A DNA stretch of 64,000 bases. Origin: Paramacrobiotus metropolitanus (taxonomy: Eukaryota; Tardigrada; Eutardigrada; Parachela; Macrobiotidae). Shown here piece after piece: positions 1,566 through 50,949 of the stretch. Both the position numbers and the translations under genes were made by a program. The notes under the pieces were generated by a model. The model did no database searches. It had not been told where the DNA came from and was given only the letters and a program-made list of their open reading frames with translations. The stretch is taken from contig NW_026570358.1 in assembly GCF_019649055.1 (NCBI RefSeq), positions 248,001 to 312,000 of the forward strand. The letters are read 5' to 3'. Numbering within the stretch: position 1 is the first letter of the stretch; each line of letters opens with the position of its first letter.

Positions 1566-1925
1566 TCTAATGGTAGATCCAGAATAGATCCACAGACGGA
1601 GACAGAAACGGAATCTATCCCGTGGAAGTGAGCAATACGATCTGGATTGCGAACTATTGCGAAATCACAAAACGTCGCACCGTAAACTGCTGACTTTTTA
1701 ATATTGAAAGTCTGGAGAACAGAAATCAACAAGTGATCGGCGCAGCTCGATCGTAAAACGTAGAGCCCGTTCAACAGTGTGCAACACTGTGCAGCACGTG
1801 CTATGCCGCGCCCACTATCAAAACGCAAGCCAATCAGAAGAGACACAACACAGACACGTAATCCAAAGGCGTAGCGCCACAGGCGTAGCGCCACTGACGT
1901 GAACGCTAGTGATCCCAGTCTCACA
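1566..1925 (-). repeat. 3' LTR of the giant Gypsy element
   Basis: This is a direct repeat of 18248-18603. On the minus strand it starts TGTGAGAC and ends CCATTAGA. The long common core includes a stretch around the GATCGGCGCAGCTCGATCG palindrome (about 1736-1754; 18419-18437 in the other copy). The adjacent interior sequence (1926-1945) is not a good polypurine tract, which is a weakness of the assignment. The 170-residue frame across it is LTR sequence, not a gene. Confidence 0.75.
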
Positions 1926-2029: not shown

Positions 2030-4120
2030 ATTCTCTTATTCCATTTTATCACATCAGTTCCATAAGGCACAATTCCATTTAATACGATGCGAATAAAGAG
2101 ATCCAATTTATAAAAATACTATCATAGAACAGATCAACAGTTAAAAAGATCAACAAAAGTATTAATCAAAATGTAGACTAGGATCCTCCATTTCTGACTC
2201 GTAAAGGTCACAGGTCCTGTCCACCGTTTTCCGCACATTGGCCCATTCCGCTCCATTGAGCAATTCTGCGCATCCATAGTGCGACTTCATCACAATCCGC
2301 TTGAGAATCAGGTGCGTATCAAGTACGACTTAAGAATACTGCTTCATCTTTGGAATAAGGTGCGTATCAATTGTACGACTTCAAAATGAGATCCAATAAA
2401 GGTCATGGAGGGACGTCTTTAAGACAAGCATGATTTGCTTCCTCCCTGGTAAGGTCATCCTGTATGAAGATGATCTGTTGAGATGTGCGACTCGTTTCGG
2501 GTTAATGGTCCCAAAGGTCATGCAACTTGAATTCCATTCCGGTGACTCTTTTGGGCAATTGATGATCCCAAAGGTCATCCCACTCTTCAAAACTTCCATT
2601 AAAGGTCATGGAGGGACTTAGCCAATTTTCTGCGGCTTTCAAGCACTTCTTTGCTTGCCTCCCTGGTAAAGACTTGATTTGACCTTTCCGTCGCACATCC
2701 AACTTCAACATGCCTCGAGCGGCCAGAGTGCCGGCAAGTTTACCGTAGCATCTCTGATGGGGCCGGCTAGTTACCGCATTGAATTTACCCCATGAAATTT
2801 CCACCTCTAATCTTTTACTCTTGTTCGCCGCCTGTGGCCCATGTTAATACGAGAAATCCGGCTCGATTACCGTAGTTTTTCTCGTTCCGCTTTTGACACT
2901 GAATCGCTCAAAAAGAGTGCCGGCACAGTTTACCGTAACAACTCTAATGAGGCCGGCTAGTTGCCGCATTAATTTCAACCCTAATAGGTATTCCACATGA
3001 TTTCTTTATCCCTTCGATTCTGTGCTATAAACGCTGAAAACAACAAGTACACGAACGCGGTTTCAGTAATATGTTACGTGACCTTTATACTTTACCATTG
3101 CGCTTAGTTAGGCTATACCGTACTGAACTGAGACTTTCGCATTCAATTCTTATTCCGATGACCTTTCGTTACTTTAACGTGATGACCTTTCCCGTGCCAT
3201 TTTTCAGTTCAATCGTCTCATTCTAACACGGTGACCTTTCACGCTTTTGACGTTTTCACCAGTTCTCCAGCGATAACTAACATTCAACTGTTTCTGATCT
3301 GTTCGCCATTATTCGAGTACAAAGTTCTTCCAGTTCTAAGTTCACAGCCTTGTAATTCGAAAGGTCATGTCGTTCCATTTGTTCGACATATATTATCCAA
3401 TGTCGCATCCGTTATGACCACGGTTTCTCCGTCGCTGAAGCCTCTTTCAACAGTGTAAACAACGATTTTTTTGAACCACCTGTCGCGCGGAGTCCGCTTC
3501 TGCATCTACTGCCGCTCTTTCCATGGGTGCACGACCTTTTCTTTCAAAGTCTCGTAACCTTTCGGTTGTTCCGTAGACACGAAACTCTCTTGACCTTTAG
3601 GTTGCGCTTCCTTCTCCACGGTTCCAGACGTCTGTTGACCTTTAGGCTGTTCGTCTTTTTCTGTGAAAGTCCCGTGACCTTGAGTCGGTCTGTCGCTTGA
3701 CCTTTCACTTTGACACCTTATGGTTTTCGGTAATCCGGCTTCACAACCTCGTCTGATGACCTTTCATTTTTGCTGATCCAGATCTTTCGTAACCTTTTGG
3801 CTGTTCCATTTGGATTTCTGCCGGAGTCTCTTACCAATTCGATTGACCTTTCACTTCTCTCGTCTGATTCAGTCCGTGTCTGATGACCTTTCGACTGGAG
3901 GACCTTCCTGTTGACTTTTCATCCATGATGACCTTTCTGGTGTCCGTTTCGATGACCTTTTGACCTTTTAACAATTTTGAATGACTTTTCGTCAGAGTTT
4001 GGTGACCTTTACACTATCAACGAAAACGATAACGATTGGCTGGTGTACTTTGTATGACCTTTACACCTTCCGAACTTCTATTTTTAGTGCCATTGATCCC
4101 ATTAATCATGTTTATGTGGG
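2030..4120 (-). other. 3' noncoding region of the giant Gypsy element
   Basis: No ORF of note lies between the last coding ORF and the 3' LTR. The stretch is dominated by AAAGGTCA octamers. In 2.2-2.62 kb they lie in the orientation opposite to that of 3.0-4.1 kb. The phrase AAAGGTCATGGAGGGAC occurs twice (2399 and 2603). Broken octamers such as GTAACCTTT, GACCTTCC and TTGACTTTTC are mixed in, as expected if copies decay after arising. Confidence 0.7.
2733..2980. repeat. Duplicated 60-bp block with GCCGGCTAGTT core
   Basis: Positions 2733-2796 and 2917-2980 are imperfect direct repeats, each running from GAGTGCCGGCA through TTTACCGTA to GCCGGCTAGTT and CCGCATT. They lie in the 3' noncoding part of the giant Gypsy element. 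It is a local duplication of unknown role. Confidence 0.75.
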
Positions 4121-4879
4121 TTATTTGTTTTCGCGTCCTTTAGTTATCCGATCAAGGAGTTCTTTCTCGGCTGCATCCTCAGGTTCGCCTCTTTGAGTTA
4201 GCAGTTCCGTAGGAGTTGGTTTCTTCTTCTTCTGCTTGACCTTTCGCTCGTTGATTGCTTTCGCTATATCGCGGCCCAATTGTTCAGCTTTTGATTTGAC
4301 CATCTCTATTTCCTCTTTTCTCTTCTCTATGAGGTCATTCTCATTATCAGTAGCAGTGCGTGGTTCGAAAAAGGGTTGTTGCAAATCCTTTTTGGAATTA
4401 CGCTCTGGTACATTAGAGCCAGTAGCAGTGCGTGGTTCGAAAAAATTCGAGTCGCGCTCTGATATCTCTGCGCCAGTTCGCTTTTTCGAAAGGTCTTTTT
4501 TGTTCAGTTCAAAATCGTTTTGCGAAGTGCGTTGTGTTACTTCGGTTTCATCTCCGTTTGCTAGTGACCTTTCTGCCAAATTCCCAGCTTCTGCGTTCAA
4601 CTTGATTGTAACTGCTGTTTCGAAATCCTTATCCTCTTTCCGCTTCCTTCCTTTCTTCTTCTTCGTTTTATCTCCGTTTAACCCATTCGTTTGACCTTCT
4701 CCCATTTCAGGTAGCGGAGGTGGTTCGAAAAATGGCTTCTGTTGTGTAACTGAGTCATTTTTCAGACCCCGCTCTGTCGTCATCTTTTCCGTTAGCTTTC
4801 TCAGTTTCGGATAGCAGAAATGGTTCGAAAAAAGATTTTTCCAAATCTTTTTGAGTACGCTCTGTTGCCTTTTCCTCAT
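4121..4879 (-). CDS. Gypsy C-terminal basic tail with FFEP repeats
   Basis: This 252-residue frame overlaps the end of the integrase ORF by about 125 bp in another frame. It is highly charged (Lys/Glu-rich, with KKKKGRKRK near residue 75) and repeats a short FFEP motif three times (FFEPPPLPE, then FFEPRTAT twice). A fourth FFEP copy, FFEPFLLSE, lies in the overlapping integrase frame. Because the same peptide continues across two frames, the two ORFs were probably once a single reading frame and an indel separates them. The basic run may serve as a nuclear-localisation or nucleic-acid-binding tail (inference). No catalytic motif is visible. Confidence 0.55.
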   Translation of the reverse strand: MRKRQQSVLKKIWKNLFSNHFCYPKLRKLTEKMTTERGLKNDSVTQQKPFFEPPPLPEMGEGQTNGLNGDKTKKKKGRKRKEDKDFETAVTIKLNAEAGNLAERSLANGDETEVTQRTSQNDFELNKKDLSKKRTGAEISERDSNFFEPRTATGSNVPERNSKKDLQQPFFEPRTATDNENDLIEKRKEEIEMVKSKAEQLGRDIAKAINERKVKQKKKKPTPTELLTQRGEPEDAAEKELLDRITKGRENK

Positions 4880-6158
4880 CTGGTAATGGAGGGTGCCATG
4901 GTTTCAACCGGTCGATCGAAACCACCTTTAAGTCTGCTTCCTTCTTCGGGTTCTGCTCAATGACCTCGGCTTCGTTTGGTCGCGGGAAACTGAGAATTTT
5001 CCACACTTTATCGTATTTCGACTTAAAGTCCGATTGGTTTTCTTTTTTCCCTTGTTTCGTATCCTTTGGTAGCCGTATCAATACGAAATCTCCCACTTTA
5101 AAGTTCGGCTCAGACTTCTTCTTGTTGTAAATCTCCGCGTTCTTCTCATAAGCGTCTTTAATATTACACCGTGCCACTTCTTCTGCAAAGGTCAAGTTCT
5201 TCTTCATGGTCTCCACCCATTCGTCTGGAGTCCCATAATCATCGGGTATATTCGTTTTTGTAACCACATCTTCCGGCATTGTCATTTCTCTGCCGTGTAG
5301 CATATAGTATGCTGAATATCCCGTTGTGGCGTGTACGACTCTGTTCATCGCTGAAATAACATATGGGAGGTACTTGTTAAACTTTCTTTCATTTCCCGCT
5401 TTCAGGTATTGCGCCAAGCCATCCGCAATTGTCTGCATCTGCCTTTCAACTTGGCCTTGACCTTCTGGGTGATATGCGGTTCCAAATGTGTGCTTAATCT
5501 TAAACACATTGGTGACCTTTGCCAATACTTCAGCTGTAAAGTGTCGTCCGCGATCCGTATGCAGGATGTGCGGTGCTCCGTGTACCAATATCACGTGCTT
5601 CACGAACACTTTAGCGAATTCTTTAGCCGTTGCTGTTTTCATCGGTACCGCGATCACGTATTTCGTCAGTTGGTCGATAAATACCGCTATGTACTTGTAT
5701 CCACGTTTCTTCGTCGGTAGCAACGGTCCTTTCAGATCAGCGTACACTCGGAAGAACGGATGTCCGACCTTTATCTCTTGTAATTTTCCTGGCGGGCATT
5801 TCCTCGGTGTTTTACGAAACTGACATCCTTGGCAGGCGAGAATGTAATTCTTCACATCTGTACTCATCCTGTCCCAGTAATATCGTAGTCGAATTGCAGA
5901 TAATGTCTTTTCGAATCCCAGATGTCCTGCCGCCTTCTCGTCGTGCAATGCGTGAATTATCGCTCTTCGCATGGACAACGGTACCACATATGACCTTTCT
6001 AGTTTGCCATTTTTATCCTTTACTCGGTATAATATACCGTTCCACAACTGGTAATGTACTTCAAATTTAGATCTTGTCTCCGCGTCTGGTAGATGTTCCA
6101 ATTCATCTATGATCATTGCCAGATGGGGATCTTTTAACTGTTTATTCCGCAATTGCAA
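4755..6158 (-). CDS. Gypsy integrase
   Basis: The enzyme inserts the cDNA copy into host chromosomes. The 467-residue frame holds, in order, the H2C2 zinc-binding domain (residues about 70-120, with GHLGFEKT, RYYWDRM and CQGCQ), the DDE core (YADLKGP, HTDRGRHF and the E in GQGQVERQ, about 135-245), and a C-terminal module with NFKVGDFVLIRLP and the terminal SIDRLKPWHPP, typical of the GPY/F-type Gypsy integrase tail. All three catalytic acidic residues are present. It overlaps the RT ORF by 25 bp in another frame (6134-6158). That overlap could be a frameshift site or a mutation, and I cannot decide which. The start used is the first ATG; true translation would be from a polyprotein. Confidence 0.9.
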   Translation of the reverse strand: MQLRNKQLKDPHLAMIIDELEHLPDAETRSKFEVHYQLWNGILYRVKDKNGKLERSYVVPLSMRRAIIHALHDEKAAGHLGFEKTLSAIRLRYYWDRMSTDVKNYILACQGCQFRKTPRKCPPGKLQEIKVGHPFFRVYADLKGPLLPTKKRGYKYIAVFIDQLTKYVIAVPMKTATAKEFAKVFVKHVILVHGAPHILHTDRGRHFTAEVLAKVTNVFKIKHTFGTAYHPEGQGQVERQMQTIADGLAQYLKAGNERKFNKYLPYVISAMNRVVHATTGYSAYYMLHGREMTMPEDVVTKTNIPDDYGTPDEWVETMKKNLTFAEEVARCNIKDAYEKNAEIYNKKKSEPNFKVGDFVLIRLPKDTKQGKKENQSDFKSKYDKVWKILSFPRPNEAEVIEQNPKKEADLKVVSIDRLKPWHPPLPDEEKATERTQKDLEKSFFEPFLLSETEKANGKDDDRAGSEK

Positions 6159-9100
6159 GTTTGAGTCATCAACCTCTTCTTCGTCACCTTGCAGGTTGAC
6201 AATGCGGACTGTCGCTGTACTGAGTTCATTCCAGTCTTTGATGACCTTGCAGCGTGGTAACGGTTTGTACCTCTTTTCATTTGTTTTGGGAATCTCAGCA
6301 ACTTAATCGGACACTCGTTCAACGCTTGTGTAACTTTGTCCGTTTCCCAAAGGTCATCTCCCTTTTCCGCTGCTTTATCAAGTCCAGTGACCTTTCCATT
6401 TTGCATTTTAGGTTCCGTGTCAAGTCCGGTGACCTTTAAGTCACTGACAGCGGGCAACCAGCTTTTCACTCGGTTCACTTGTGCTTCGTTTTCAGCCGAC
6501 TCATTCGCCGTAGCTGAAGTGACCTTTAATCGTTTTTCTCGTTGTTCCACCATCTGTAGGAACAGCTGACCGATTTCGATTGCTGGTTCTTTCGTGTCAA
6601 ATTCCTTCTTGTAATCCTCGAAGTTTGGAATCTCATCAAATTCTTCTTCTTGACACGTCGGGCCTTCGATCGGCGCTCTTGATAATGCATCCGCGTTGTC
6701 GCAGTATTTTCCCGGTTTGTATTCGATTTTGAACTGGTGACCTTGTAATGCCATTGCCCATCTCGTCAGACGCGGGTTCATCCCAACTTTATTCGTCTCT
6801 GACCTCAGCAAGTTTGTCAGCGCCTGATGATCCGTCCTTACGGTAAATTCGGCATAATCGATGTACGGCTTGAATTTCCTGACAGCGAACACTACTGCCA
6901 GACATTCCCATTCCGTTACGCCGTAATTTTTCTCGGCTCCATGCAAGACGCGGCTCGCATATGCGATTGGGTGTCCATCTTGTGACAGTACAGCTCCAAT
7001 TCCTTCTTTGCTCGCGTCGCATTCGATGACGGTCGGTTTTGCTGGGTCAAATTTTGCCAATACTGGACCTTCACACAACAACTTTTTCAAGCTATTGAAC
7101 TCTTCCTCATGTACTGCTGTCCAGTCTTTTTTTACGTGTTTATCTTGTCTCAGCAACTCATACAAGTGGCAAGTCTTCTGTGCGTATCCCATTATGAACT
7201 TGCGATAATAATTTGCCAGTCCAAGGAATGACCTTAACTGCCTTTCCGTTTGAGGTCGTTTGAATTCTGAGACCGCGGTGACCTTTTCCGGATCCATTCT
7301 GATTCCATCTTCGCTGAGTATGTGACCCAGGAATCCCATTTGTCTCATTCCAAATTCACACTTGGTTGGTTTAATCGTGAATCCCGCTTCAACCAGACTC
7401 ATTAAGACATTTCGCAGATTCTGCATGAAGATCGCCCAAGTCTTTCCGGCGAAGATAACATCATCAATGTACCCGAAAACACATCCTTTTCTTTTCGCTT
7501 TTGAGAGTACTTTGTCCATGCACAACTGGAATGTTGCTGGTCCGTTGCACACTCCGAATGGCATTCGTTTAAACCGGTACATTCCATCTTGCGTTACAAA
7601 GGTCGTCTTGTTGATAGACGCCGGATCCATTGGGATCTGCCAGAATCCACTTTGTAAATCCATTTTTCCATAATATTTGTTGCCCGCACACGCATCGAGC
7701 AATTCATCTGGGTTCGGTAGCGGATAATTGTTCTTTCTCGTTAACTTATTAAGCATGATGTAATTGACACAAAATCTTGTTCCCATTGTTCCATCACCGT
7801 TTTTCTTTACTGCCAGCACGACTGGGAAACTCCACTCGGCGTCTGACGGCTCAATTACATCTTGTGCCAACATTTCTTCGATATGCTTCGTTATAAACTC
7901 ACGGCCTGTCCAACTCGTTCTGGCCGGGTTACACTTAACTGGCTTTGCATCTCCCGTGTCAATTACGTGAGTGACCCCTTTTACATCTCCATACGGTTTC
8001 TTTGATGTGGGTAAGACTTTCCAGAATTCCCAAAACGCGTTGTACACGTCGTTTTTCTGCTCTTGGGTAAGGTCAGGCCCCAATTTCAAGTTTTCGATTA
8101 TCTTTTTCAGTTCAGCTTTTGTTGTATCGTCCACCTCAGGGTCTTCGAGTACGTTTTTTACTGTCCCTGCGTTGACCTTTACATTCTCCATATGTTCATA
8201 CGGTTCGACGTATCCGAGAAGCTGATTTTTCTTCACGATCCGATATTTGCTACTGTGATTCGCAATAACGATCTCGAAGTACTTTCCTCTGTGATCCGTC
8301 ACTCCTGCCAACGGTTGCACCTCAGTTTCCACTTGTGGGACCGGTGTAAACATCAACTTGTTTTGAGCCGGTGCATATTTTCCCATCTTGACCTTTACAC
8401 GTGTGCAGTTTGACGGTTTCAATTTGATTCGTTGGTCGCTGTAGACTTTGATCACGTCTTTCGACATTCTGGCTTTTTCCACTTTCAATCTTCTGACTTT
8501 AATATCCTTTTCTTTTTCTTCATCTACTTCGTCATCCTCATCCAAGTCCATTAAATCCTCTTGCTCCGAAAGGTCACTTACACCTGAATCTTCCGAAGTC
8601 GTTGAATTATCACTTGAACTCGTCCACTCGGAGTCGGAGTTACTGCTCTCATATTCTTGTGCAGTGGCTTGACCTTTGTCAGCCTTTTCGAGTGGACGCT
8701 CATCAACTCCTTCATCTTCTGATGAAAGGTCACTTTCGTTTTCTCGCGAATCGCTAAGTTTTTTCGTTTTCGAATTTTTGAGCAGGGGTTTGTCCCCTTC
8801 TTTTGCCTTTCGCCCATTTCGTGCGGCTACTCTCGGGTGACTCCTCGCTACTCGAATTCTCGTTGGTGACCTTTCTGATTGATCGGAGTTTGACCTTTCT
8901 TCGTCCGATTTTGACTTTTCCGATTCATTTATTTCTTCGGGGCTCGTTAATGGTTTTTCGGTCAACTCGACCGGCGGACATTCCTCACCGTTATCGAGTG
9001 ACCTATCCCCGTTTTTTGCCTCAGTTACTGGGTTTTGCTGTTCCTTCGATATTCGTTCAACTTCTTCTTTAAACTTCTTCCACATTTCGCCTCTGTCCGT

Positions 9101-9652
9101 TAACATCTGTGCAATGTCGAAAGCCGATTTTGAACTTTCTTCTGTTTCATTCGATTGTCCTTCGGCTATCTCTTGAACTGGTTCCTCTTTCTCTGCTTCT
9201 TTGACAGTCCCTTTATTGGCTTCATCCTGTTGAACTGTTTCGTAACCTTTAGGTCGTTTAGGACCAACAAAGTTGCAGTTTGCCATCAGCTCTTCGGTGA
9301 CCCATTCATCATTTGGAATCGTTTCATACATGCACCATGTATCACCGCCTCGTTCGGGGTAGTCCACTCCATCTGGATCTGGTGCAAAGGTCACCTTTTT
9401 CTTTTGCATTAATCCCGGTAACCTTCTTTTCCGGGTTACCTGTAGTTCTCGCATTTCTTTTACGTCAAATTTGGGGATTTCTTCCTCGAATTTCTTCCAG
9501 TATTTCTCAAATGCTTTTTCGTTTCCCTCTTTTAACGCGTTGTAGTACACTTCAAGTGATTCGTAGACAGGTGTACCAAGTCCTGCCGGAAGATGATCGT
9601 TCTCCTTCGCCTTTATACATGTGGTTCGCACGGAAGTCCCAGAAAAGGTCAA
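6134..9652 (-). CDS. Gypsy reverse transcriptase and RNase H polyprotein
   Basis: The 1172-residue frame has a long acidic, low-complexity N-terminal half (residues 1-400, Glu/Ser/Asp-rich) followed by reverse transcriptase. RT motifs seen are YYGKMDLQSGFWQI (about 665), FGVCNGPATFQ (about 705) and the catalytic box GYIDDVIF (about 730), with YIDD in place of the commoner YVDD. RNase H follows with ECDASKEGIGAVLSQ, ASRVLHGAEKNY, EWECLAVVFA and RTDHQAL (about 880-960). The thumb/connection motif LGLANYYRKFI is typical of Ty3/Gypsy. The octamer is embedded repeatedly, for example as KVTGLD twice near the C-terminus and as ERS elsewhere. The last 100 residues are non-conserved and precede the integrase frame. 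The RT core is intact. Confidence 0.92.
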   Translation of the reverse strand: MTFSGTSVRTTCIKAKENDHLPAGLGTPVYESLEVYYNALKEGNEKAFEKYWKKFEEEIPKFDVKEMRELQVTRKRRLPGLMQKKKVTFAPDPDGVDYPERGGDTWCMYETIPNDEWVTEELMANCNFVGPKRPKGYETVQQDEANKGTVKEAEKEEPVQEIAEGQSNETEESSKSAFDIAQMLTDRGEMWKKFKEEVERISKEQQNPVTEAKNGDRSLDNGEECPPVELTEKPLTSPEEINESEKSKSDEERSNSDQSERSPTRIRVARSHPRVAARNGRKAKEGDKPLLKNSKTKKLSDSRENESDLSSEDEGVDERPLEKADKGQATAQEYESSNSDSEWTSSSDNSTTSEDSGVSDLSEQEDLMDLDEDDEVDEEKEKDIKVRRLKVEKARMSKDVIKVYSDQRIKLKPSNCTRVKVKMGKYAPAQNKLMFTPVPQVETEVQPLAGVTDHRGKYFEIVIANHSSKYRIVKKNQLLGYVEPYEHMENVKVNAGTVKNVLEDPEVDDTTKAELKKIIENLKLGPDLTQEQKNDVYNAFWEFWKVLPTSKKPYGDVKGVTHVIDTGDAKPVKCNPARTSWTGREFITKHIEEMLAQDVIEPSDAEWSFPVVLAVKKNGDGTMGTRFCVNYIMLNKLTRKNNYPLPNPDELLDACAGNKYYGKMDLQSGFWQIPMDPASINKTTFVTQDGMYRFKRMPFGVCNGPATFQLCMDKVLSKAKRKGCVFGYIDDVIFAGKTWAIFMQNLRNVLMSLVEAGFTIKPTKCEFGMRQMGFLGHILSEDGIRMDPEKVTAVSEFKRPQTERQLRSFLGLANYYRKFIMGYAQKTCHLYELLRQDKHVKKDWTAVHEEEFNSLKKLLCEGPVLAKFDPAKPTVIECDASKEGIGAVLSQDGHPIAYASRVLHGAEKNYGVTEWECLAVVFAVRKFKPYIDYAEFTVRTDHQALTNLLRSETNKVGMNPRLTRWAMALQGHQFKIEYKPGKYCDNADALSRAPIEGPTCQEEEFDEIPNFEDYKKEFDTKEPAIEIGQLFLQMVEQREKRLKVTSATANESAENEAQVNRVKSWLPAVSDLKVTGLDTEPKMQNGKVTGLDKAAEKGDDLWETDKVTQALNECPIKLLRFPKQMKRGTNRYHAARSSKTGMNSVQRQSALSTCKVTKKRLMTQTCNCGINS

Positions 9653-10316
9653 CTCTCGCTTCTTCCCACATTTCTCCTTCTTCGGTCATCTCTTCTATCT
9701 CTCGTTCAAATCTCCTTTCTGTTGCTACCGGATCGAGAGGATCTTGGATTCCTTTCTCCACACGTTGCAACCAATGGTTTAGCCATCTGCCTCTTCCGAT
9801 TATAAAACTTTCCACGCATGACAACCACGTTCGATATCTATTCCAATGATACCGTTCGATGTGTGGTTTCCACATTTCGTTTGTCCGCATGATGCTTTTC
9901 ACTTCCTTTTGGGCATGACCTTTAAGGTCTGCTAATGCGGCATTACATCTTGGCCATTCTGAGAGGTCATCTTGGGAGGCATTTTCACAACATTCCACGC
10001 ATTCCCATTGTGGTTGCACTCTGCACGGATCCTCAAAGTAACCGTGGTGACAACTCCCGGCTCGTTCTTCTGGAGTTAATGTCCTTTGACTCGCTTGAGG
10101 TTTAACATCTTCCCGTGTTGTGGCGTCTTGTTCACATTCGATTGGGGTCACGCTTTTATCCTCCGAGGATATTTCAATGACCTCTAGTTCTTTTTCTGTT
10201 CGGTGACCTTTCAACTGTTCGAGTGCCTTGTCGCGGATTTCGCTTGTAAACATCTGTTCCTCTTCAGCTATTCGTTTCAAAACTCGTAACCTTTCACTCT
10301 TTTTATCCTTCCCCAC
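9552..10316 (-). CDS. Gypsy ORF between protease and RT
   Basis: A 254-residue frame lies between the protease-bearing ORF and the RT ORF and overlaps the RT ORF by about 100 bp in another frame. It is charged and Trp-rich, with a cysteine-containing stretch (PCRVQPQWECVECCENAS, about residue 98-115) that does not fit a known zinc knuckle. No function is evident. It may be a linker of the polyprotein separated by indels. The octamer appears in it as KGH (LKGHRTEKE and DLKGHAQKE). Confidence 0.5.
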   Translation of the reverse strand: MGKDKKSERLRVLKRIAEEEQMFTSEIRDKALEQLKGHRTEKELEVIEISSEDKSVTPIECEQDATTREDVKPQASQRTLTPEERAGSCHHGYFEDPCRVQPQWECVECCENASQDDLSEWPRCNAALADLKGHAQKEVKSIMRTNEMWKPHIERYHWNRYRTWLSCVESFIIGRGRWLNHWLQRVEKGIQDPLDPVATERRFEREIEEMTEEGEMWEEARVDLFWDFRANHMYKGEGERSSSGRTWYTCLRIT

Positions 10317-10333
10317 TTTAGCCGTCTTTATTT

Positions 10334-10750
10334 CCAGTGCCTCTGGTACTGGCCGTTCTGGTACTGGGATAGCTTTTCAACACCTTTTTCTGTGTCTCCT
10401 TGTTTATATTCATCTGTGATCATACTTCTCCCGTCCGAGAAATATGATCGCCTCATCCGTGTCTGGCGCGAGTGGTTCCTTTTTCCTTTCGTTGACTTTT
10501 GACATTTACGCTTTCGCTAATCTTCCGGTGCCTCTGGTACCGGGATTATCCGTTGGCTAATCTCGTTCTGCTGCACTCGTCATTCCCGGTGCCTCTGGTA
10601 CTGGGATGACCTTTCTCTTCCCTTTTGTGTCAGCATTGTCCGATTTAACGTGTTTTCGATCTCCTGCTGAATCATTTGCAACTGCTCAAATGGTGACAAT
10701 TCTTTTCGCGTCATCTTTTTCCTTTCGTTTCCCGGTGCCTCTGGTACTGG
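10334..10750 (-). repeat. Four hairpin repeats, GGTGCC-TCT-GGTACC type
   Basis: Copies lie at 10334-10352, 10525-10543, 10586-10604 and 10732-10750. Each has 8-9 bp arms around a TCT loop. Outer pairs differ between copies but stay paired: in the first copy CAGTGCC faces GGTACTG, in the second CCGGTGCC faces GGTACCGG. The third and fourth use G-T wobbles. The copy at 10732 is read IPVPEAPG, while the copy at 10586 is read in another frame (SQYQRHRE), so conservation is not at protein level. Confidence 0.75.
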
Positions 10751-12541
10751 GATTATCGTTTTATTAACCATTTTAGCGTTTCCCGTCTGTTTTACAAGTT
10801 CGGTGACCTTTCCGACTTGAACTTTGGCGACTGGTTTTGGGTCATCTTCTTTCTCTTCTTCACCTTCGTTATCCATTAGTACAAATTTCTTTTCCAAGAA
10901 GTCAAATCCCAGTAAGACTTGTACGTCGTCACACTTCGGTCGGACGTAGAAGGAATGTTCGCTTGTCTTCTTTCGTAAGGTCACTGGTGCTACACAGTAA
11001 TGCGTCACCAGGAATCCTGACGTTCCGCTAATTCCATTAATCTTCACTAATCTGTCAGGTGGCAATGGAAGCATGTGGAGTCCATTCTTTTCGCAAAACG
11101 GTTTGCTGATAAGCGACGTCTCAGCGCCGGTGTCCAACATTGCGTTGACCTTTATGTCTCCCACTTTCACTTCGTGTGTATACGCTTCAATTCTTTTGGG
11201 TAATTTTCCATTTTGAATCTTCAAGGTGTGAATCTTACATTTCACAGGGATAAGTGATACTGGTCCCGGATCCATATCGGAAAGCACTTGTCCTTTTGCT
11301 GGAGTGCTATGACCTTTCAGTATCTCGCTCAGCTTGTCAATCCTGTGTGGAACGTTAGTCCGAACATCGTAATATTTTCGCGGCTTTTCTTTATTTGTTC
11401 GCTTCTCTGTAGCCATTTTATCACCGATGACCTTTTCCACATTCTGCACTTGCTCATTTGCTTTTGTGCTATCCATGTGACCTTTAGTCACTTCATTTAT
11501 CGTCTGATGGATCAGTTCCTCTTTGCGATTTTCATTTCGTTTATCTCTCAGCTTCTCAATGACTTCACTTGTTATTTGGTCAGCTCGCTTCAATTCGTCT
11601 TCTTCGCCATCTCTCATCTCCTCTGGTGACCTTTCATATGTGACCATATTATATCCCTTTTCGGTCATCCATTCAATCACCTTTGCAGACACTTCATTGT
11701 TCGTTCTCGTCGGGTCGATTTGTGAAGACATTCCGTCTGTTCGGGCTGGTGACTTGTCATTGGCATCCTTTTGCAGTGCCTCCGATAAGTCCCGTGACCT
11801 TTCAACTGCGCCACTCTGTTGCGTTTGCGTCATCTCTTTTGACCGTCTTTTTTGTTCATTTTGCGCTAAGTCCTGTGACCTTTCGTTGCGCTTCATGACA
11901 AATCCGCCGTTTGTCAGCTTTTGTATGGGGACTTTTTCTCCATAATTCGGCGGTTTATCCTGTGGCGGAGCATTACGTGAATAATTCCAGTCAGCGCATG
12001 TCTTCTTATATTCCTCTGCGTTGAATGCTGGGACTGGGTTCGGTGACCCTTGCGCTGGTTTCCCGGTAACCAACTCTTCTAGTCGCTTTCTTTCACATTG
12101 CGTTCGCAACTGTTGCATATCCCAGTAATCCTCTTGTGACATTCTTGCTTTCTGCTTTGCTTTCGGTGTCACAGGTATCCACATCCCGTGATTGCCATTC
12201 GGTCTGTAGGCCACTTTTTGCCAGATTTCCTTCCGTTGCAGCGTTATTGCATCTACAAGTGAGTCATCGGAGTTCTGTTGTGCCAATTCGCCATTCTTTT
12301 GCTGCGCTGTTCGCAGTGTCAAGTCTGTTTCTTGACCTTTTAACACGACGCTGTCGCCGTGACCTTTAGCATTCGCACTTGCTCCGCGACCTTTCACTTG
12401 AACTTTTCCAACGGAAGGTGACCTTTCATCTTTACTACTAACGGTGATATTCTGCTTAATCCATTCTTGCCTTGCCAGCTTCTCTTCTTCGTCTTCTGAA
12501 CAATTCCAAAACTTTGGCTTTGGCTCCCCGTAACATCGCAA
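10580..12541 (-). CDS. Gypsy gag-pol segment with aspartic protease
   Basis: The 653-residue frame is mostly polar, Lys/Glu/Gln-rich spacer (1-450). A retropepsin domain follows: AMLDTGAETSLIS (about residue 470), the flap-like region KINGISGTSGFLV, and the C-terminal VLLGFDFLEKK, which stands in the place of the (I/L)LG(R/M)DxL motif. The protease cuts the Gag-Pol polyprotein. The octamer is present many times and in all frames: KGH (AKGHGDS, LKGHSTP, TKGHMDS), RS (DERSPSV, ERSRDL) and KV(T/I/Q). Such density in a linker suggests that the linker grew by accumulation of the motif. The next ORF starts about 260 bp downstream. Confidence 0.85.
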   Translation of the reverse strand: MRCYGEPKPKFWNCSEDEEEKLARQEWIKQNITVSSKDERSPSVGKVQVKGRGASANAKGHGDSVVLKGQETDLTLRTAQQKNGELAQQNSDDSLVDAITLQRKEIWQKVAYRPNGNHGMWIPVTPKAKQKARMSQEDYWDMQQLRTQCERKRLEELVTGKPAQGSPNPVPAFNAEEYKKTCADWNYSRNAPPQDKPPNYGEKVPIQKLTNGGFVMKRNERSQDLAQNEQKRRSKEMTQTQQSGAVERSRDLSEALQKDANDKSPARTDGMSSQIDPTRTNNEVSAKVIEWMTEKGYNMVTYERSPEEMRDGEEDELKRADQITSEVIEKLRDKRNENRKEELIHQTINEVTKGHMDSTKANEQVQNVEKVIGDKMATEKRTNKEKPRKYYDVRTNVPHRIDKLSEILKGHSTPAKGQVLSDMDPGPVSLIPVKCKIHTLKIQNGKLPKRIEAYTHEVKVGDIKVNAMLDTGAETSLISKPFCEKNGLHMLPLPPDRLVKINGISGTSGFLVTHYCVAPVTLRKKTSEHSFYVRPKCDDVQVLLGFDFLEKKFVLMDNEGEEEKEDDPKPVAKVQVGKVTELVKQTGNAKMVNKTIIPVPEAPGNERKKMTRKELSPFEQLQMIQQEIENTLNRTMLTQKGRERSSQYQRHRE

Positions 12542-12735
12542 CTTGGCTCCTTCGCCTTTTCGTTTTCTGCCAAAAATTTTCGAAATTTCGCGTGCTGTTC
12601 GTTTGCCTCTTGCGCAGTGTCGTTCTGCGGTTTCTTCTGATTCAGGAGCGCCTGTTGAATCTTTGCATTTCGTTGTGCGCGTCGTTGCGCTAGCACTTCT
12701 TCGCTGCAGTACGGTGACCTTTCATTTTGCTGCAC
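12394..12735 (-). CDS. Short Gln/Lys-rich Gypsy linker ORF
   Basis: A 113-residue frame overlaps the start of the protease ORF by about 150 bp. It is rich in Gln, Lys and Ala with no domain. It begins MQQNERSP, where ERS is the octamer. It probably belongs to the same polyprotein linker, separated by a frameshift. Confidence 0.4.
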   Translation of the reverse strand: MQQNERSPYCSEEVLAQRRAQRNAKIQQALLNQKKPQNDTAQEANEQHAKFRKFLAENEKAKEPSCDVTGSQSQSFGIVQKTKKRSWQGKNGLSRISPLVVKMKGHLPLEKFK

Positions 12736-12774
12736 TTTTTGCAGTGTCGCGCTACCGTCACGACAATTTCCACT

Positions 12775-13055
12775 CGCAGTACCATTCTGCGGTGACCTTT
12801 AGTCCCACTTGGACGTTTCCACTCGCAGTACCATTCTGCGGTGACCTTTCACTTTGTGACGGTATTCCTATAACCGTTCCATTTCCTTTTGCGATGACGG
12901 CATCCATATAGCCGTTTCTCTTTGCTGTGGCGGCATCCATCTAGCCGTTCTTGTGGTTGCGGCATCCATATAGCCGGTCCATTTTGCTTTTTCTGCTGAC
13001 GGCATCCATATAGCCGTTGCAGTGGTCACATTCACTGCAGTACCATTCTGCAGTG
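12775..13055 (-). repeat. Three hairpin repeats with TACCATT loop
   Basis: Copies at 12775-12791 and 12824-12840 have arms CGCAG/CTGCG around the loop TACCATT. The copy at 13033-13055 has the longer arms CACTGCAG/CTGCAGTG around the same loop. The C-G pair of the first two is T-A in the third, a compensatory change that supports a structure acting as RNA or single-stranded DNA. Each hairpin is followed within two to four bases by the octamer (GGTGACCTTT), so hairpin and octamer form a composite unit. Confidence 0.75.
12859..13017 (-). repeat. Five hairpin repeats with ATCCATATA loop
   Basis: Four copies (12897-12915, 12931-12947, 12960-12977, 12999-13017) have a GGC/GCC core stem, usually ACGGC/GCCGT, around a conserved nine-base ATCCATATA loop (one has ATCCATCTA). 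A fifth at 12859-12877 has ACGGT/ACCGT around ATTCCTATA, again a compensated C-G to T-A pair. Spacing is 29-39 bp. They lie in the region between the CCHC segment and the protease linker. Confidence 0.75.
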
Positions 13056-13115
13056 GTGACCTTTCCTTTATCCGGTGGTTTATAGGGTCGGGTCGATCAG
13101 TAGGCTCACCGGTGC

Positions 13116-13856
13116 CTACTGATCTTGCCCGTTTCCTGAACCGGCGCCCCTCCTGTTGCGCGCCCTGCATTTCCCTTGCGCTTGCTCGTTCACCGAATAC
13201 GCCTCCGTTTGCTGGCCACCACCCTGTTGGTAGTTTCCTTGGCCGCCGCCATTGTTCTGGCCTCCTCTGAAGTTTCCGCGGCCGAAGCCTCTGTTTCTTC
13301 CTCTGAAGCCGCCGCGGCCAGAAGCCACCACGGCCGTAGCCACCATTCTGGCCACCGCCATTTCCATTTCCATAGTTCCCGTTTCCATTCCCTTGTTGGT
13401 TTTGGAAGTTTGCTTTGTGCTGATACCATTGGGTGATGAGGTCATATCCGTTGCGACCGCTAGACGCCAACCACCAAGCCCGCGCAGTCGTTGCCACTCG
13501 TTGAAGGCAAACAGATTCGGGTTCTGTTCTGGTGATGTGTTAGCGAATTTGCACCCCTGTGTCTGATGATTGCCGTCCATACAGTACTGGCACATCTGAA
13601 CGTTGTTCGCCACCCATCCGTCAATCATCTGGAACTTGAATTCGGTTCGTGACCCTTGATTTTGCTGACTATTGTTCTGGTTTCCTCTGTTTGGCTGAAA
13701 GTTGCCTTGACCTTGACCTTGATTCTGAAAGTTTCCTTGGCCTCCATTCCAGTTTCCATTTCCATATCCATTTCCACCGAAATTTCCATTACGCCCACCT
13801 TGTTGTGGTAACCCGACATTCATAGGGGCCACATTCTGTGGTGCCGGTGCAGCCAC
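13116..13856 (-). CDS. Gypsy nucleocapsid-like Gly/Asn-rich ORF with CCHC knuckle
   Basis: Residues 10-65 are Gly/Asn/Gln-rich, followed by one zinc knuckle CQYCMDGNHQTQGC (C-x2-C-x4-H-x4-C) at about residue 85, then RGGF-type Gly/Arg repeats. This fits retroelement nucleocapsid, which binds and packages element RNA. The Gly/Asn-rich reading passes into another frame (13.3-13.46 kb: GNGNYGNGNGGGQN) and then returns (GRGGFRGRNRGFGRG), so a pair of compensating frameshifts has occurred. That suggests drift under some constraint, or assembly error in a low-complexity tract. It lies between capsid and protease, as expected. Confidence 0.7.
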   Translation of the reverse strand: MAAPAPQNVAPMNVGLPQQGGRNGNFGGNGYGNGNWNGGQGNFQNQGQGQGNFQPNRGNQNNSQQNQGSRTEFKFQMIDGWVANNVQMCQYCMDGNHQTQGCKFANTSPEQNPNLFAFNEWQRLRGLGGWRLAVATDMTSSPNGISTKQTSKTNKGMETGTMEMEMAVARMVATAVVASGRGGFRGRNRGFGRGNFRGGQNNGGGQGNYQQGGGQQTEAYSVNEQAQGKCRARNRRGAGSGNGQDQ

Positions 13857-14146
13857 ATTTGAGGTACTGGCCTCGCTTGAGCGGCCACCTGTACCGCCGC
13901 CGCTTGTATGGCTGCCCGTCTTGCGTCATAAAGGTGACCTCTTTGGTGACCTCTTGGGTTTGCTCTGCGGTAATCCGGTGGCTGCTGAACTGGTACCGCT
14001 GCCATTCTCTGTTGTGGCATATCTTCGACTTGACCGGTACGGATGGTCACGTATTCTTGGTTACGTTGACCTTTTAGGCGCTTTATATTTTCTTCTCCAG
14101 CTGACCAGTGTCGGAAAAATCTTTGATTTCGGTCGGTGTTCTGCAT
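13820..14146 (-). CDS. Gypsy gag linker ORF
   Basis: A 108-residue frame, rich in Gln, Arg, Ala and Pro, lies between the capsid frame and the nucleocapsid-like frame. No domain is seen, only polar linker (RMAAVPVQQPPDYRR, and an Ala/Gln run). It contains octamer-derived KGQ (RLKGQRNQEY). It is probably part of Gag, in a shifted frame. Confidence 0.4.
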   Translation of the reverse strand: MQNTDRNQRFFRHWSAGEENIKRLKGQRNQEYVTIRTGQVEDMPQQRMAAVPVQQPPDYRRANPRGHQRGHLYDARRAAIQAAAVQVAAQARPVPQMWLHRHHRMWPL

Positions 14147-14198
14147 TGTTGCGTACGCAGTGCCTTATAAAGGTCACTGTCCACTCTACATCCTTCGA

Positions 14199-14531
14199 TT
14201 AGGAAACCGACTGCTTGTTTTCAGTGATAATCCGCTTCGCCTTGTATTTCATGATCGCCTGATAAAACTGATCGAGCGATTCTTTTCCAAGGTCAAATTT
14301 CCTTGCCATGGCTTCTCGTAGTCCGAGGACTTCTTCATCACGGTCTCCATATTCATCTTTGAATTTGTCCATCCATTCCGTAATTTGTATTCTGTTTTTC
14401 CTCCTGGAGTGCGATCTCTCTCCTTCGAACCAGGTTTTCGCTGGTCCTTTTACTGCGCTGGCTATCTCAATCAGGATTTGGTCGTCGGTGAGATGATACG
14501 TTCGTTGGGTATCTCTGACCAGTTCTGTCAA
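14199..14531 (-). CDS. Gypsy Gag capsid (Retrotrans_gag-like)
   Basis: The 110-residue frame matches the retrotransposon Gag core: AVKGPAKTWFEG (about 27-38), TEWMDKFKDEYGD (about 51-63) and SLDQFYQAIMKYK (about 85-97), in the spacing of the family (A.. W....... F...F......L.. L). It builds the virus-like particle. The domain is short and flanked on both sides by other frames, so this copy's Gag is probably broken by indels. Confidence 0.75.
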   Translation of the reverse strand: MTELVRDTQRTYHLTDDQILIEIASAVKGPAKTWFEGERSHSRRKNRIQITEWMDKFKDEYGDRDEEVLGLREAMARKFDLGKESLDQFYQAIMKYKAKRIITENKQSVS

Positions 14532-14742
14532 CCATTCACTGCGTCGCGACTGCCGTCAAAGGTCATGAGTGTGTTTTTCGAGCCATCGAGTTGAGTGCTT
14601 TTGTCAACTGCGCCGCTGTATCTTCTGCTCTCTGGTCTCCTCCTCTTTGCTACTTTCATCATTGTTTTGATTTCGTTTCGCCTTTCCATAACGGGATTTC
14701 CTAGGACGCTCCTGCCGGCTGGAGGGTCTGTCCCGTCGCCCT

Positions 14743-15189
14743 TCATCCGATGAACACGTTTGTTTCAAAGTGCGAGGGAAATTGTGAAGGGTCACCTCGA
14801 CTCATATGCGGGTTGACTTTCCGAGGTGGCTCTTTGTCTTCTTTGCCCTTTTCTCCTTCTCGTTCCGCTTTTACGCTTCCTTTACCGGTACCAGTTCGTT
14901 TTGGCATCTCAAAGTGGAAGCTTTTGCCCGTGCCCGTTTCATGTGCCTTACTGTAACTGGGCGGGGGTGACTCCACTGTTGCTGTTCTGACTCCATATTG
15001 CAGCAGTTGTTCATCTTTGTGTTTATTCGACATGTTGAGCGCCTTATTTTCATCTTCAAGGCGACGGACTTTCAACTGGAATTCCTCTTTTTCCGTTTTC
15101 AAATTCTGATTCTCCTCGTTGACCTTTAGCATGTGCTGATGGAGTTGGAAGGTCTTCTCCTGGATGACCTTTTCAGTATCATTCTCCAT
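14743..15189 (-). CDS. Gypsy gag N-terminal coiled-coil ORF
   Basis: This 148-residue frame begins with a heptad-rich Leu/Glu/Lys coiled coil (HMLKVNEENQNLKTEKEEF through VRRLEDENKALN, residues 15-55) and then becomes a charged Gly/Thr/Lys linker. Weaker coiled-coil pieces continue in other frames up to 16.2 kb (for example 15988-16170, with LEDELHNKEDQ and LETRLFELEQQR). The second Gypsy-type element in this window also has a large coiled-coil ORF upstream of its capsid, so this is a shared design. The role, probably oligomerisation, is inferred. Confidence 0.55.
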   Translation of the reverse strand: MENDTEKVIQEKTFQLHQHMLKVNEENQNLKTEKEEFQLKVRRLEDENKALNMSNKHKDEQLLQYGVRTATVESPPPSYSKAHETGTGKSFHFEMPKRTGTGKGSVKAEREGEKGKEDKEPPRKVNPHMSRGDPSQFPSHFETNVFIG

Positions 15190-16127
15190 CCTCTTAATGT
15201 GTTCATAACTGGGTCACATCCCTTTCCAACGTCGTGTATTCCTCAGCTGCCGCTTTCAGCTGGTTTTTTTGTACAGGTGACCTCATCTTCCCTCGTCATT
15301 GCCGTTTGGGTCATATTGATCAGCTCCGTGTTGAGTCTGATGATCTCCTGTGTTTTCTGATGTACCGTCTGTTGCCATTCTTTATCTTTCAGTTTCGAGC
15401 ACCGTGACCTTTTCATCCAAAAGGTGTGCCTCATGTTCCCACCTCGCGCCTTGTTCTGCAATCGTCTTGGCGGCTTCCTTCAACTCTTTGATCTCATCGG
15501 TGACCTTTTGTTGTCCTCCTTCAACACCTTGTTCTCTTGCATCACCTGTCTTATTTCATTATTCAACCGTACACCTACGGTGGCTGTAAGATCTCGCAAG
15601 TCCTTTGCCACCTTAGCGGCTTCATCAGCCCTTCTCTGGTGATCGTATGACTCCTTCTGGAGGTCCCGATATTCTCGTCACGGAGCTTCAGGTCATTCCT
15701 GAGCTTGAAGACTTCAGTAGTGTTTGTCAACAACCGCTGAGTAGCATCGGCGAGTTTGGTTGCGTATTCATCTCTTTTCGTTTCAGCTTCAGTGACCTTT
15801 AGTTTCCAGTGAGTCGCATTCGTCCTTCAATTCTGCCAAGTGTCGTGACCTTTCCGCTGATTCTTCCGACATGCTCTCGTTAAGGTCACTGACTGCAAGA
15901 TGACCTTCCATTTCTCTGTCATCTACCATTTCAGATACTCTTCAGTTCCCTTGCTTTCATATTTCACTTTCCATTCTTCTGCTGTACTCACAAGTGTCCC
16001 CGTTGTTGTTCCAACTCAAATAGCCGAGTCTCGAGCGATGTCAGTCTCTCTTGATATTCCTGTTTTCGTCTCGCCGTCTGGTCCTCCTTATTATGGAGTT
16101 CATCTTCCAGATCCTTCACGCGCCTCT

Positions 16128-16892
16128 TCAAGAGTTGACGTGGGGCTGTTCGGTGACGGCGGTCGTACATTGATGACCTTTCCGTTTGTGTCCGTTCGAT
16201 GAGATGCTCTGGTATGTCCTTAAAAGTGTCATCCCTTCAGCGCGGTCAGCTTGCTTCATTGCGGATTGGAATGACATATTCATAGTCGTTTCATCATCCG
16301 TGAAATAGGACTCGTTTGATTCGTCTGAGACCATTGGAGTTGCCCAAAGGTCATCGCCTGTGGTTTTATCGATCAGTGAAAGGTCATCCAGTCCCAGTTC
16401 AACGAGTTCCTCTTCGGTGACCTTTGTCTTTTCCATTTCCATTTGAGCCAGGTTCACATTCTTATCCTGCTCATTCATTCCACTGGTGGTAGCATCCGAC
16501 TGTGATGCTCCAACTGGTTCCGCTCCTCTTGCTGTGGGTTTATCCTCCCCGGTGACCTTTGTCTGGTTCATCGGATCACTTCCCGCTGTAGGCGCGGGAG
16601 TGTGTTTCTGGTCGTCACTGGAGCTTTCCTGATTGGCGACCGCCTCGAGCGCCTTCTGATAAGTGCTATCAGAGCCTCGTGAGTCCTTCTTTTCGAATGC
16701 CTTGGGCGCTCGAGTGTTCCGCTCATGTCCAACTGGACGCGAGTACGGGTACAAATCTTTTGTACGGATTTGGTGCACCTTGCTGTGAGCTGCGGGAGCT
16801 TTTGCTTCCCTGACTGCTGTTAGATGTCGGTTCCTCTTGGTCTTTATCCATGTTGATCGGATAACTTGGACGCTCCTGCCAATTGTTCTCAC
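16128..16892 (-). CDS. First gag-region ORF of the giant Gypsy element
   Basis: The 254-residue frame is acidic and polar (Thr/Asp/Glu/Ser-rich) with no recognised domain. It is the first long ORF after the leader. Octamers are read in it as KVT (TKVTGEDK, TKVTEEE) and as the antisense form DDLW. Coiled-coil frames follow downstream. It is probably the N-terminal part of an extended Gag. Confidence 0.45.
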   Translation of the reverse strand: MRTIGRSVQVIRSTWIKTKRNRHLTAVREAKAPAAHSKVHQIRTKDLYPYSRPVGHERNTRAPKAFEKKDSRGSDSTYQKALEAVANQESSSDDQKHTPAPTAGSDPMNQTKVTGEDKPTARGAEPVGASQSDATTSGMNEQDKNVNLAQMEMEKTKVTEEELVELGLDDLSLIDKTTGDDLWATPMVSDESNESYFTDDETTMNMSFQSAMKQADRAEGMTLLRTYQSISSNGHKRKGHQCTTAVTEQPHVNS

Positions 16893-18235
16893 ACACGTTA
16901 TTGTATGGTTTATTCAATAATCCTAAAGGTCACTCTGTACCTCCGAAATTTTCTAAGTCCTTATTAAAGGTCACTTTTCGACTGAAAAATTCGACTAAGT
17001 CCCCGTTTAAAGGTCACTTTTGATAAAAAAGTTCGAGAGTTCTGCCCTAAAAGGTCACTTTCGGACAAAACTTCGAAACAGCTTTTACAGTTTGGGACAC
17101 GTTAGCGAATGAAATCCTACAGCTGCTGATATCGCTGTACTACTATTCAGTTCAATTTCACTTCGGTAAAGGTCACCGTTTGTCAATTTCGAATCATAAA
17201 GGTCACTTAAATAGGTCAATCCGGTCAATTCCAAACTTTTTGGTAAAGGTCACTTTTCTAAGTCAAAGGTCAACTTCTGGTCCCAAAGGTCACTTTCTGA
17301 CTCAACTCAACTCAAAAGGTCACTTTCCAGCTCAATTTCGAGTTAAAGGTCACTTTTCATCTCAATTATCTCATCTCAGATCAAATTTCCCATTACTGCT
17401 AAAGTTCAACGGAAAATCCCCATTCGGGTTGTTTACGTCGTTCTGATTGGTCAGCTAGTTCAAGTTATTCAGTTCAAATTTCGACCAATCACAGCTCAGA
17501 TAACTGACCAATTACGTGGTTCCTCTTAAAATCTATATCTGCCTGACGTCACGGTCAACGGCCAGACATGCGCGTCGTGTGCAAAACTCCGCCTACATCT
17601 ACGCTCAGCTCAGTACGGACCAATAAAATTGCCAATTTTACCAACTAGCCAATCCGTAATTAACAACGGTTTTCTACCTGTTAACGTCCGTCTGTTCCAC
17701 GTCCGTCCGTTCCGCGGGAGGATGATCCAGATGATCAGATTCTTCTTCCAACTCCGTTCCCGCGTCGCCGCTGTTCCGTAGCGTGCCTCGCGCTATCAGT
17801 AGGCTACTGTGCCGGCTGTGCCGTAGCAACAGTAGTTTTACGCTCTACACCAGTTTGGTGGAGTCTGATCTGTCTTTTCCGTGCGCCCCTTTCGGCGTTT
17901 CGGCTCTTGTGGCCCACGGCAAGTTCGCTGAATCCTTGCCGAGTATCAACGACACCAGTGTAGGTCTTCGCTGAAGACTCTACACCGAGGAACATGACGA
18001 CTGAACTCTTGTACTCTTTCACAGCTATGAAACAGCACGGTTCTTCGCTGAAGATACCGTACCGAAAACAAAGCTGGTAATCCACGTCAGATGAGGAATT
18101 CGCACCGCTTGTGGTGTTGCGCTTTGCTGTGGGATCGACCTGTGCCTTACTGGTCACGGTGAACACGTCAATTAACAGGCCAAATATGCCTGGCACGACT
18201 CAAATCAGTCAAATCAAATCAGAGAACCGCTGTCG
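16893..18235 (-). other. 5' leader of the giant Gypsy element
   Basis: About 1.3 kb lies between primer site and first long ORF. The part at 16.92-17.36 kb carries 11 octamers, all AAAGGTCA on the plus strand. The element RNA leader therefore carries UGACCUUU, complementary to the sense octamers of the coding body. The part at 17.4-18.2 kb has no octamer. A 130-residue frame (17804-18196) lies in it, its ATG about 40 bases after the primer site. Confidence 0.7.
17804..18196 (-). CDS. Possible leader ORF of the giant Gypsy element
   Basis: This 130-residue frame starts 40 bases downstream of the primer site and would be the first ORF on the genomic RNA. It has a hydrophobic start (MPGIFGLLIDVFTV) and a central YQLCFRYGIFSEEPCCF stretch. 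No family is recognised. It lies outside the octamer field. It could be a real upstream ORF or chance. Confidence 0.25.
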   Translation of the reverse strand: MPGIFGLLIDVFTVTSKAQVDPTAKRNTTSGANSSSDVDYQLCFRYGIFSEEPCCFIAVKEYKSSVVMFLGVESSAKTYTGVVDTRQGFSELAVGHKSRNAERGARKRQIRLHQTGVERKTTVATAQPAQ

Positions 18236-18247
18236 GCTCTGCTACCA
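18236..18247 (-). promoter_or_regulatory. Primer binding site, initiator tRNA-Met
   Basis: The minus strand reads TGGTAGCAGAGC directly after the 5' LTR. It is complementary over 12 bases to the 3' end of insect-type initiator tRNA-Met including CCA (GCTCTGCTACCA). This fixes the LTR/internal boundary and the element's direction. Confidence 0.85.
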
Positions 18248-18603
18248 TCTAATGCTAGATCCAGCAGTGATCCAGATACGGAGACCTAAACGGAATAGAT
18301 CCCGTGGAAGCGAGCGATACGATATGGATCGCGAGCTATGCGGAAAACACAAACGTCGCACCGTAAATCGCTGACTTTTAATAATATTGAAAGTCTGTGC
18401 AACAGAAAATCAACAAGTGATCGGCGCAGCTCGATCGTAAAACGTAGAGCCAATTCAACAGCGTGCAACGCTGTGCAGCACGTGCTATGCCGCGCCCACT
18501 AATAAAGCGTAAGCCAATCAGAAGCGAGACACAACACAGACCGTAATCCAAAGGCGTAGCGCCTAGCGCACAGGCGTGAACGCTAGTGAGGCCTCGTCTC
18601 ACA
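18248..18603 (-). repeat. 5' LTR of the giant Gypsy element
   Basis: It is the partner of 1566-1925: starts TGTGAGAC on the minus strand and ends CATTAGA immediately before the primer site. Compared with the other LTR it has substitutions and small indels (for example GCCTAGCGCACAGG against a duplicated GGCGTAGCGCCAC), so the insertion is not recent. Confidence 0.8.
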
Positions 18604-38693: not shown

Positions 38694-38705
38694 TGGCGCC
38701 CAACG
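38694..38705 (+). promoter_or_regulatory. Primer binding site, tRNA-Lys
   Basis: TGGCGCCCAACG abuts the 5' LTR end and is complementary to the 3' end of tRNA-Lys(CUU) including CCA. The complementarity breaks at the next base. Confidence 0.8.
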
Positions 38706-49926: not shown

Positions 49927-50077
49927 CTTCGGGGACCACGTTATGTAGTACATGGTTCACGAAATCGAGAGTTTAACCCGTTTAGGGTAACTAAGACATT
50001 GCTTCCCTGTACCTTCCCTTAAAAGCGAAAACAAAGATTTCGAATATTTAGACGCTGCAACAGCCTGTGATACCAAT

Positions 50078-50945: not shown

Positions 50946-50949
50946 TGTT

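Follow-up and report, generated by a model that had tools for sequence, protein, structure and literature searches.

Transposon arrays for a DNA-binding protein are already known. The Su(Hw) insulator of the Drosophila gypsy element sits in the leader, and the VANDAL elements of Arabidopsis are DNA transposons. Gypsy is a long terminal repeat (LTR) retrotransposon with clustered short sites for a host DNA-binding protein (PMC3701704), and the VANDAL/VANC system has a short motif repeated within one transposon family, with relatives carrying other motifs (PMC5735166). The NBRE, written as 5'-AAAGGTCA-3' in PMC10419244, is the site for an NR4A receptor monomer.

The window analysed here (the whole stretch of 64,000 nucleotides, contig NW_026570358.1 of the tardigrade Paramacrobiotus metropolitanus, positions 248,001 to 312,000) contains an element of about 17 kb on the minus strand, identified by Pfam domains and blastn terminal repeats as a Ty3/Gypsy-type LTR retrotransposon, along which the octamer AAAGGTCA is repeated. 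As in gypsy, the leader holds a clustered array (11 putative binding sites in 428 bp); unlike in gypsy, the tardigrade word is also scattered through the 3' region and through gag and pol, where it uses every sense frame, the word itself differs, and its reader is only a candidate. As in the VANDALs, a short motif is repeated within one family, but the VANDAL motif lies in noncoding tandem repeats, and no VANC-like protein was found in the tardigrade element pieces scanned with Pfam. The sequence-only reading had named the octamer as exactly the NBRE, which holds: the two are identical over eight bases and share the monomer format (PMC10419244). What is unusual here is that the array runs through all sense coding frames. 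No comparable array was described in the listed titles and abstracts of the literature on retrotransposons, nuclear receptors and NR4A motifs, tardigrade Gypsy elements and tardigrade NR4A receptors, and no transposon is known to us in which protein-coding DNA carries NBREs by the tens.

The octamer array is real and strong. The window contained 86 exact copies of AAAGGTCA. Of these, 84 lay within 2203-17352 (plus strand 27, minus strand 57) and two elsewhere (28570 and 59070). From base composition, 0.71 copies would be expected in the element and 1.75 in the remainder of the window, and an order-2 Markov model built from the element predicted 1.56 in 15.5 kb. The 8-base left flanks were different for all 86 copies. 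Within open reading frames (ORFs), 43 octamers were observed against about 3.3 expected from 1000 synonymous-codon shuffles per ORF (11 stop-to-stop ORFs). The 34 sense copies in ORFs were spread over all three frames (9, 10 and 15, counted ORF by ORF), and the 9 antisense copies occupied two frames (3 and 6), the empty frame being the one that would write TGA. The base following the 84 octamers was C in 43, T in 23, A in 18 and G in none. One-mismatch variants were about threefold denser in the element (51 in 17.0 kb) than outside it (43 in 47.0 kb). The earlier count of about 84 copies in the element with two elsewhere was borne out, and the codon-preserving shuffle, named there as a possible refutation, did not give similar numbers. 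The parts of the element, in window coordinates, are as follows.

18248 to 18603, minus strand: 5' LTR, without octamer (blastn self-match to 1566-1925).
17353 to 18247, minus strand: leader segment free of octamers, 895 bp (site count).
16925 to 17352, minus strand: leader array of 11 octamers, all AAAGGTCA on the plus strand, partly tandem (30-bp unit at 17285-17366).
13116 to 16913, minus strand: gag region, split into several open frames in the window copy, with a single CX2CX4HX4C knuckle and with octamers read in several frames.
10580 to 12541, minus strand: aspartic protease frame, 12 sense octamers (PF13975/PF13650).
6134 to 9652, minus strand: reverse transcriptase (RT)/RNase H frame, 14 octamers, 9 sense and 5 antisense (PF00078, PF17917, PF17919).
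4755 to 6158, minus strand: integrase frame, 3 octamers, 2 sense and 1 antisense (PF17921, PF00665).
2203 to 4062, minus strand: 3' region beyond the last long frame, second dense octamer stretch, both orientations.
1566 to 1925, minus strand: 3' LTR, without octamer (blastn self-match).
2203 to 17352, no strand assigned: entire octamer array, 84 copies of AAAGGTCA (exact count).

The Ty3/Gypsy assignment was based on the minus-strand order protease, RT/RNase H and integrase (12541 down to 4755, Pfam), and the LTR assignment on direct terminal repeats at 1566-1925 and 18248-18603, which were 85.5-85.8% identical in a blastn self-match. No target-site duplication was seen by eye next to the LTRs. 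The window RT was 98% identical to the P. metropolitanus protein LOC129592891. Octamers were placed unevenly over these parts. The density had been taken to be equal in coding and noncoding DNA, which did not hold, as the 5.7 kb of non-ORF sequence had 41 octamers and the 11.3 kb of ORF sequence 43. Both LTRs contained none, and neither did the 895 bp after the 5' LTR, where the rate of the element would give 5.0 (P 0.007); for one LTR taken alone the lack was not significant (P 0.14). No octamer site was found in the LTRs of relatives at any of eight loci, and the gap from the LTR to the first site was 875-921 bp in the four of these eight LTR loci where it was measurable.

Relatives of the subfamily to which the window copy belongs (A1) were sought in the assembly (169.8 Mb, 533 contigs) with a 19-base leader word. 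It matched 25 times, and the sequence of ten of these places (L009-L028) was retrieved, one with a second partial copy. These relatives were 76-93% identical to the window copy, which served as the alignment reference. Conservation and border counts were made on high-scoring segment pairs (HSPs) of at least 400 bp, and codon-position, orientation and RNA-pairing counts on HSPs of at least 250 bp, the codon set adding loci L029-L031. The octamer was whole in 431 of 518 aligned cells (83%) from the ten places, compared with 27,959 of 87,649 for other 8-mers, and 8-mers of the same composition were kept in 1,105 of 3,601 cells. Identity per base was 95-99% at the eight octamer positions versus 76-91% across the 20 flanking bases to each side. 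Third codon positions were identical in 847 of 871 cases (97.2%) inside octamers versus 17,221 of 23,003 (74.9%) outside. By class, 49 of 51 antisense coding cells, 235 of 272 sense coding cells, 119 of 158 antisense noncoding cells and 60 of 76 sense noncoding cells were kept. The base after the relatives' octamers was C in 404, A in 89, T in 80 and G in none (n=573). With the window left out, AAAGGTCA was the top 8-mer (z 13.0) in three pairs of relatives (L009 with L015, L017 and L014), among 8-mers with at least 10 aligned occurrences. The element-free flanks of nine loci held 4 octamers in 72.5 kb, with 2.7 expected.

We take these results to mean that a short, asymmetric word of double-stranded DNA is under purifying selection. 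A peptide cannot account for both the third positions and the use of three frames; with third codon positions frozen and all sense frames used, the proposal that the conserved object is nucleic acid and not peptide stood. The spacing of sites was near random (CV 1.09), there was no helical phasing (R 0.12 over 93 pairs), and everted pairs at spacing 6 (NurRE-type dimers) were absent from the window and numbered 0 in the relatives, as would be expected of monomer sites.

One explanation without function is that a copying or mutational process, such as template switching, gene conversion or microsatellite-like spread, multiplied the octamer, and the partly tandem leader array agrees with it. All 86 flanks differed, however, the borders were those of the eight bases with third positions frozen between diverged copies, and gene conversion was rejected because conservation stops at eight bases. 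Among the 87 changed cells, 43 had one substitution (12 of these being AAAAGTCA), 20 had two to four, and 24 were gapped. The larger set contained 25 gapped cells, none of which lacked the whole octamer in the relative; 16 lacked one base, the most missing was five of eight, and two longer gaps, of 9 and 23 columns, came from additional bases in the relative. At the 25 alignable sites of L043, a copy from a sister subfamily, one was identical to the window, 22 were ungapped with 1-5 substitutions and two were gapped. Copies thus differ mostly by substitutions and other small changes rather than by inserted octamers, with no direction of change implied, and spread by a copying process, one of the options raised at first, was abandoned as highly improbable.

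Action of the word in RNA, through Gag packaging or through sense-antisense pairing within the genomic RNA, was also considered, since the 11 leader copies are UGACCUUU in RNA and most body copies AAAGGUCA, so that pairing is possible. Against this, both orientations were kept (sense 295 of 348, antisense 167 of 208), and the absence of G at base nine is unexplained by RNA action. Pairing of the octamers was rejected on the substitutions, as pairing-breaking transitions (16 sense, 5 antisense) were no rarer than wobble-preserving ones (13 and 1). The suggestion of RNA packaging was likewise disfavoured, with both orientations kept and no preference for pairing-preserving changes, and we consider an RNA role very unlikely.

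The reading that we prefer, with a probability of roughly 0.45, is that the element carries a body-wide array of AAAGGTCAH monomer sites for a sequence-specific double-stranded-DNA-binding protein, of which the likeliest would be the host NR4A (DHR38/NHR-6) receptor. The bases before AGGTCA were AA in 84 of 110 cases and CA in 6. The NR5A/ERR consensus has C at position 1 (CA before AGGTCA), and NR4A is favoured over NR5A or ERR because of the A at this position. A host NR4A-like DNA-binding domain was found in two exons on contig C45 with the P-box CEGCKG; its first finger was 92.6% and its second 78.3% identical to human NR4A2, the assignment being made on the DNA-binding-domain exons by identity and not by tree (search query P0125). 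This domain has AACQHYG where all five other host domains with the first finger covered, among ten fetched, have SGxHYG.

Under this reading, natural selection on point mutations would maintain the AAAGGTCAH array along the element, and the host NR4A-type receptor would bind an integrated copy at many sites at once. Sites sparing the LTR and the first 0.9 kb would let the factor coat the copy without covering the promoter and the RNA start. Transcription from the LTR could be driven or protected by the bound array, serving as an intragenic enhancer or as a platform against silencing; alternatively, the array could be an insulator as in gypsy.

Several observations weigh against the NR4A array. 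The leader word used to find the A1 relatives itself contains the octamer. In the same test of L009, L015, L017 and L014, overlapping 8-mers around CCAGAGGC were kept in 30 of 30 cells (z 6.8). Local orientation was non-random, with 65 of 83 neighbours agreeing. Direct repeats at gaps of 21-22 bp, which probably reflect the tandem leader array, were prominent in the relatives, making up 54 of the 197 pairs no more than 40 bp apart. The number of 84 sites is far above the need of an enhancer. In known receptors the C-terminal extension touches the AAA part of the site, and the host NR4A sequence recovered here is limited to the DNA-binding-domain exons. Other host proteins could share the same site. 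Finally, a copy of a further subfamily (A3, L044) had G at base nine in 3 of its 26 octamers, and the sister subfamily A2 (L043 and L045) had 2 and 3 octamers per 10 kb (about 0.3 expected); A2 without the word is an objection because a host receptor cannot change for one subfamily only.

The word around CCAGAGGC also occurs in the window (GTGCCTCTGGTA, 4 copies) and may be a repeated peptide.

Another host DNA-binding protein (a nuclear receptor, a zinc-finger protein, or an insulator or chromosome-pairing factor) may read the word, as Su(Hw) reads the gypsy insulator, which consists of degenerate direct repeats for that protein (PMC3701704). The host genome gave 63 zf-C4 matches, exons counted apart. 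The exact NBRE and the A at position 1 nevertheless favour NR4A among the receptors known to us, and a different host reader is considered quite unlikely.

The comparison of subfamilies bears on the identity of the reader. A degenerate RT word had 150 exact places in the genome, sister subfamilies included. L044 and L045 were among the three places fetched from this list, and L043 was picked because the genomic octamer list looked sparse there. Octamer density was 40-51 per 10 kb in A1. The A3 copy L044, with an RT core 89.5% identical, had 26 octamers in 10 kb; of the 16 window octamers that could be aligned with it, 10 were the same in L044 (control 13%). The RT cores of A2 were 92-95% identical to that of the window at the protein level, the whole RT frame of L043 being about 71% identical. 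Sites were not conserved between A1 and A2, since their identity in L043 was no better than that of other 8-mers (9.5% identical). In the distant families L046 and L047, no octamer was found in the 10 kb fetched. The expectation that relatives would share the enrichment therefore stood for those fetched with the leader word, wherever element DNA was present, and failed for L043, L045, L046 and L047, which lack it; the array is thus confined to some subfamilies and does not extend to the entire clade. The RT-core comparison gave no clear branching order for A1, A2 and A3. Judging from peptide counts, the KVT/ERS excess of P0001 seems to be missing from P0004 and P0005.

The A2 copies were rich in GATC, with about 95 (L043) and 97 (L045) per 10 kb, compared with 33 in the window segment, 32 in L009 and 53 in L044 (counts halved since the word is palindromic). 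An A2 leader piece (L048) had 37 GATC and 2 octamers in 2.5 kb. In A2, GATC may have taken the place of the octamer. Its conservation between L043 and L045 was modestly above average (z 3.4), behind CATC (4.3) and ATGA (3.7), and no crisp motif emerged when A2 and the families B1 and B2 were put through an EM search.

The main rival to the NR4A array is a self-encoded reader of the VANC type, in which the element would itself encode the protein that recognises the word. Bound along the whole copy, this protein would lift silencing, and the two would co-evolve, so that subfamily words differ. The close sister A2, nearly without the octamer yet GATC-rich both over the body (about 95-97 versus 32-33 per 10 kb) and in its leader piece (2 octamers among 37 GATC), agrees with such a system, and the Arabidopsis VANDAL/VANC families use differing short motifs (PMC5735166). 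A2 without the word is better explained by a self-encoded or replaceable reader, because a conserved host receptor does not explain it. However, no sequence-specific DNA-binding domain passed the Pfam cut-off in 7 window pieces and 5 further pieces, where the only candidates were a zinc knuckle (in translation) and a sub-threshold AT hook. VANC motifs are noncoding and the coding probes tested were without them (PMC5735166), while here 43 of the 84 sites lie in ORFs. The EM search gave no crisp GATC motif, and the octamer-bearing L044 was intermediate in GATC (53 per 10 kb). A self-encoded reader is accordingly considered somewhat unlikely. A broader and equally doubtful proposal is that the internal part of these elements, coding DNA included, bears from end to end a DNA address that can be replaced: AAAGGTCAH in A1 and A3, exchanged in A2 for a word with a GATC core as the protein reading the element changed.

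Some further observations were made on the elements. The A1 integrase has in its C-terminal tail (L030:1801-2874) an AT-hook-like KKRGRPRK (PF02178, under the cut-off), and P0004 of family B has the similar GKRGRPRKK. In the relative L014, gag is one unbroken frame of 1261 amino acids, and the N-terminal part of the A1 Gag (L014:3-3785), ahead of the capsid part, is long and coiled-coil-like by eye. L047 (family B2, C37:457000-466999) contained 13 copies of AACCGACC versus about 1.2 expected, all sense and in all three phases; it may be another dispersed word. At 38128-45691 the window has one more LTR element, younger than the first, with terminal repeats 98.8% identical and a gag-like frame (PF03732 just under the cut-off); it contained no octamer, and motif searches there gave no crisp dispersed word. 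The window also has 84-bp tandem repeats of TGGAACT-type units at 50066-50946 and 60272-60628, the two arrays being mutually inverted.

The family has moved recently, since the copy on contig C9 had LTRs identical at 343 of 343 bases and uninterrupted frames in the pieces read; the window copy, with LTRs 85.5-85.8% identical, looks old or recombinant. The whole genome contained 42,562 copies of AAAGGTCA versus 15,522 for the letters read backwards, an excess of about 27,000 that is the arithmetic equivalent, not a census, of some 320 full-length elements. Should such elements hold most of these excess copies, the effect could be to titrate the receptor or to rewire it.

How far this array stands from the known systems depends on which protein reads it, and A2 without the word offers a natural experiment on that question. 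If the replaceable address is true, an animal retroelement would have an address code that spans its whole genome and can evolve. If the receptor binds, a retrotransposon family would be wired along its whole length to a single host transcription factor, with the recurrent K-G-H, K-V-T and R-S triplets in the element proteins as the price, and it would be a strong case of a transposon adapting its coding DNA to be read as regulatory DNA.

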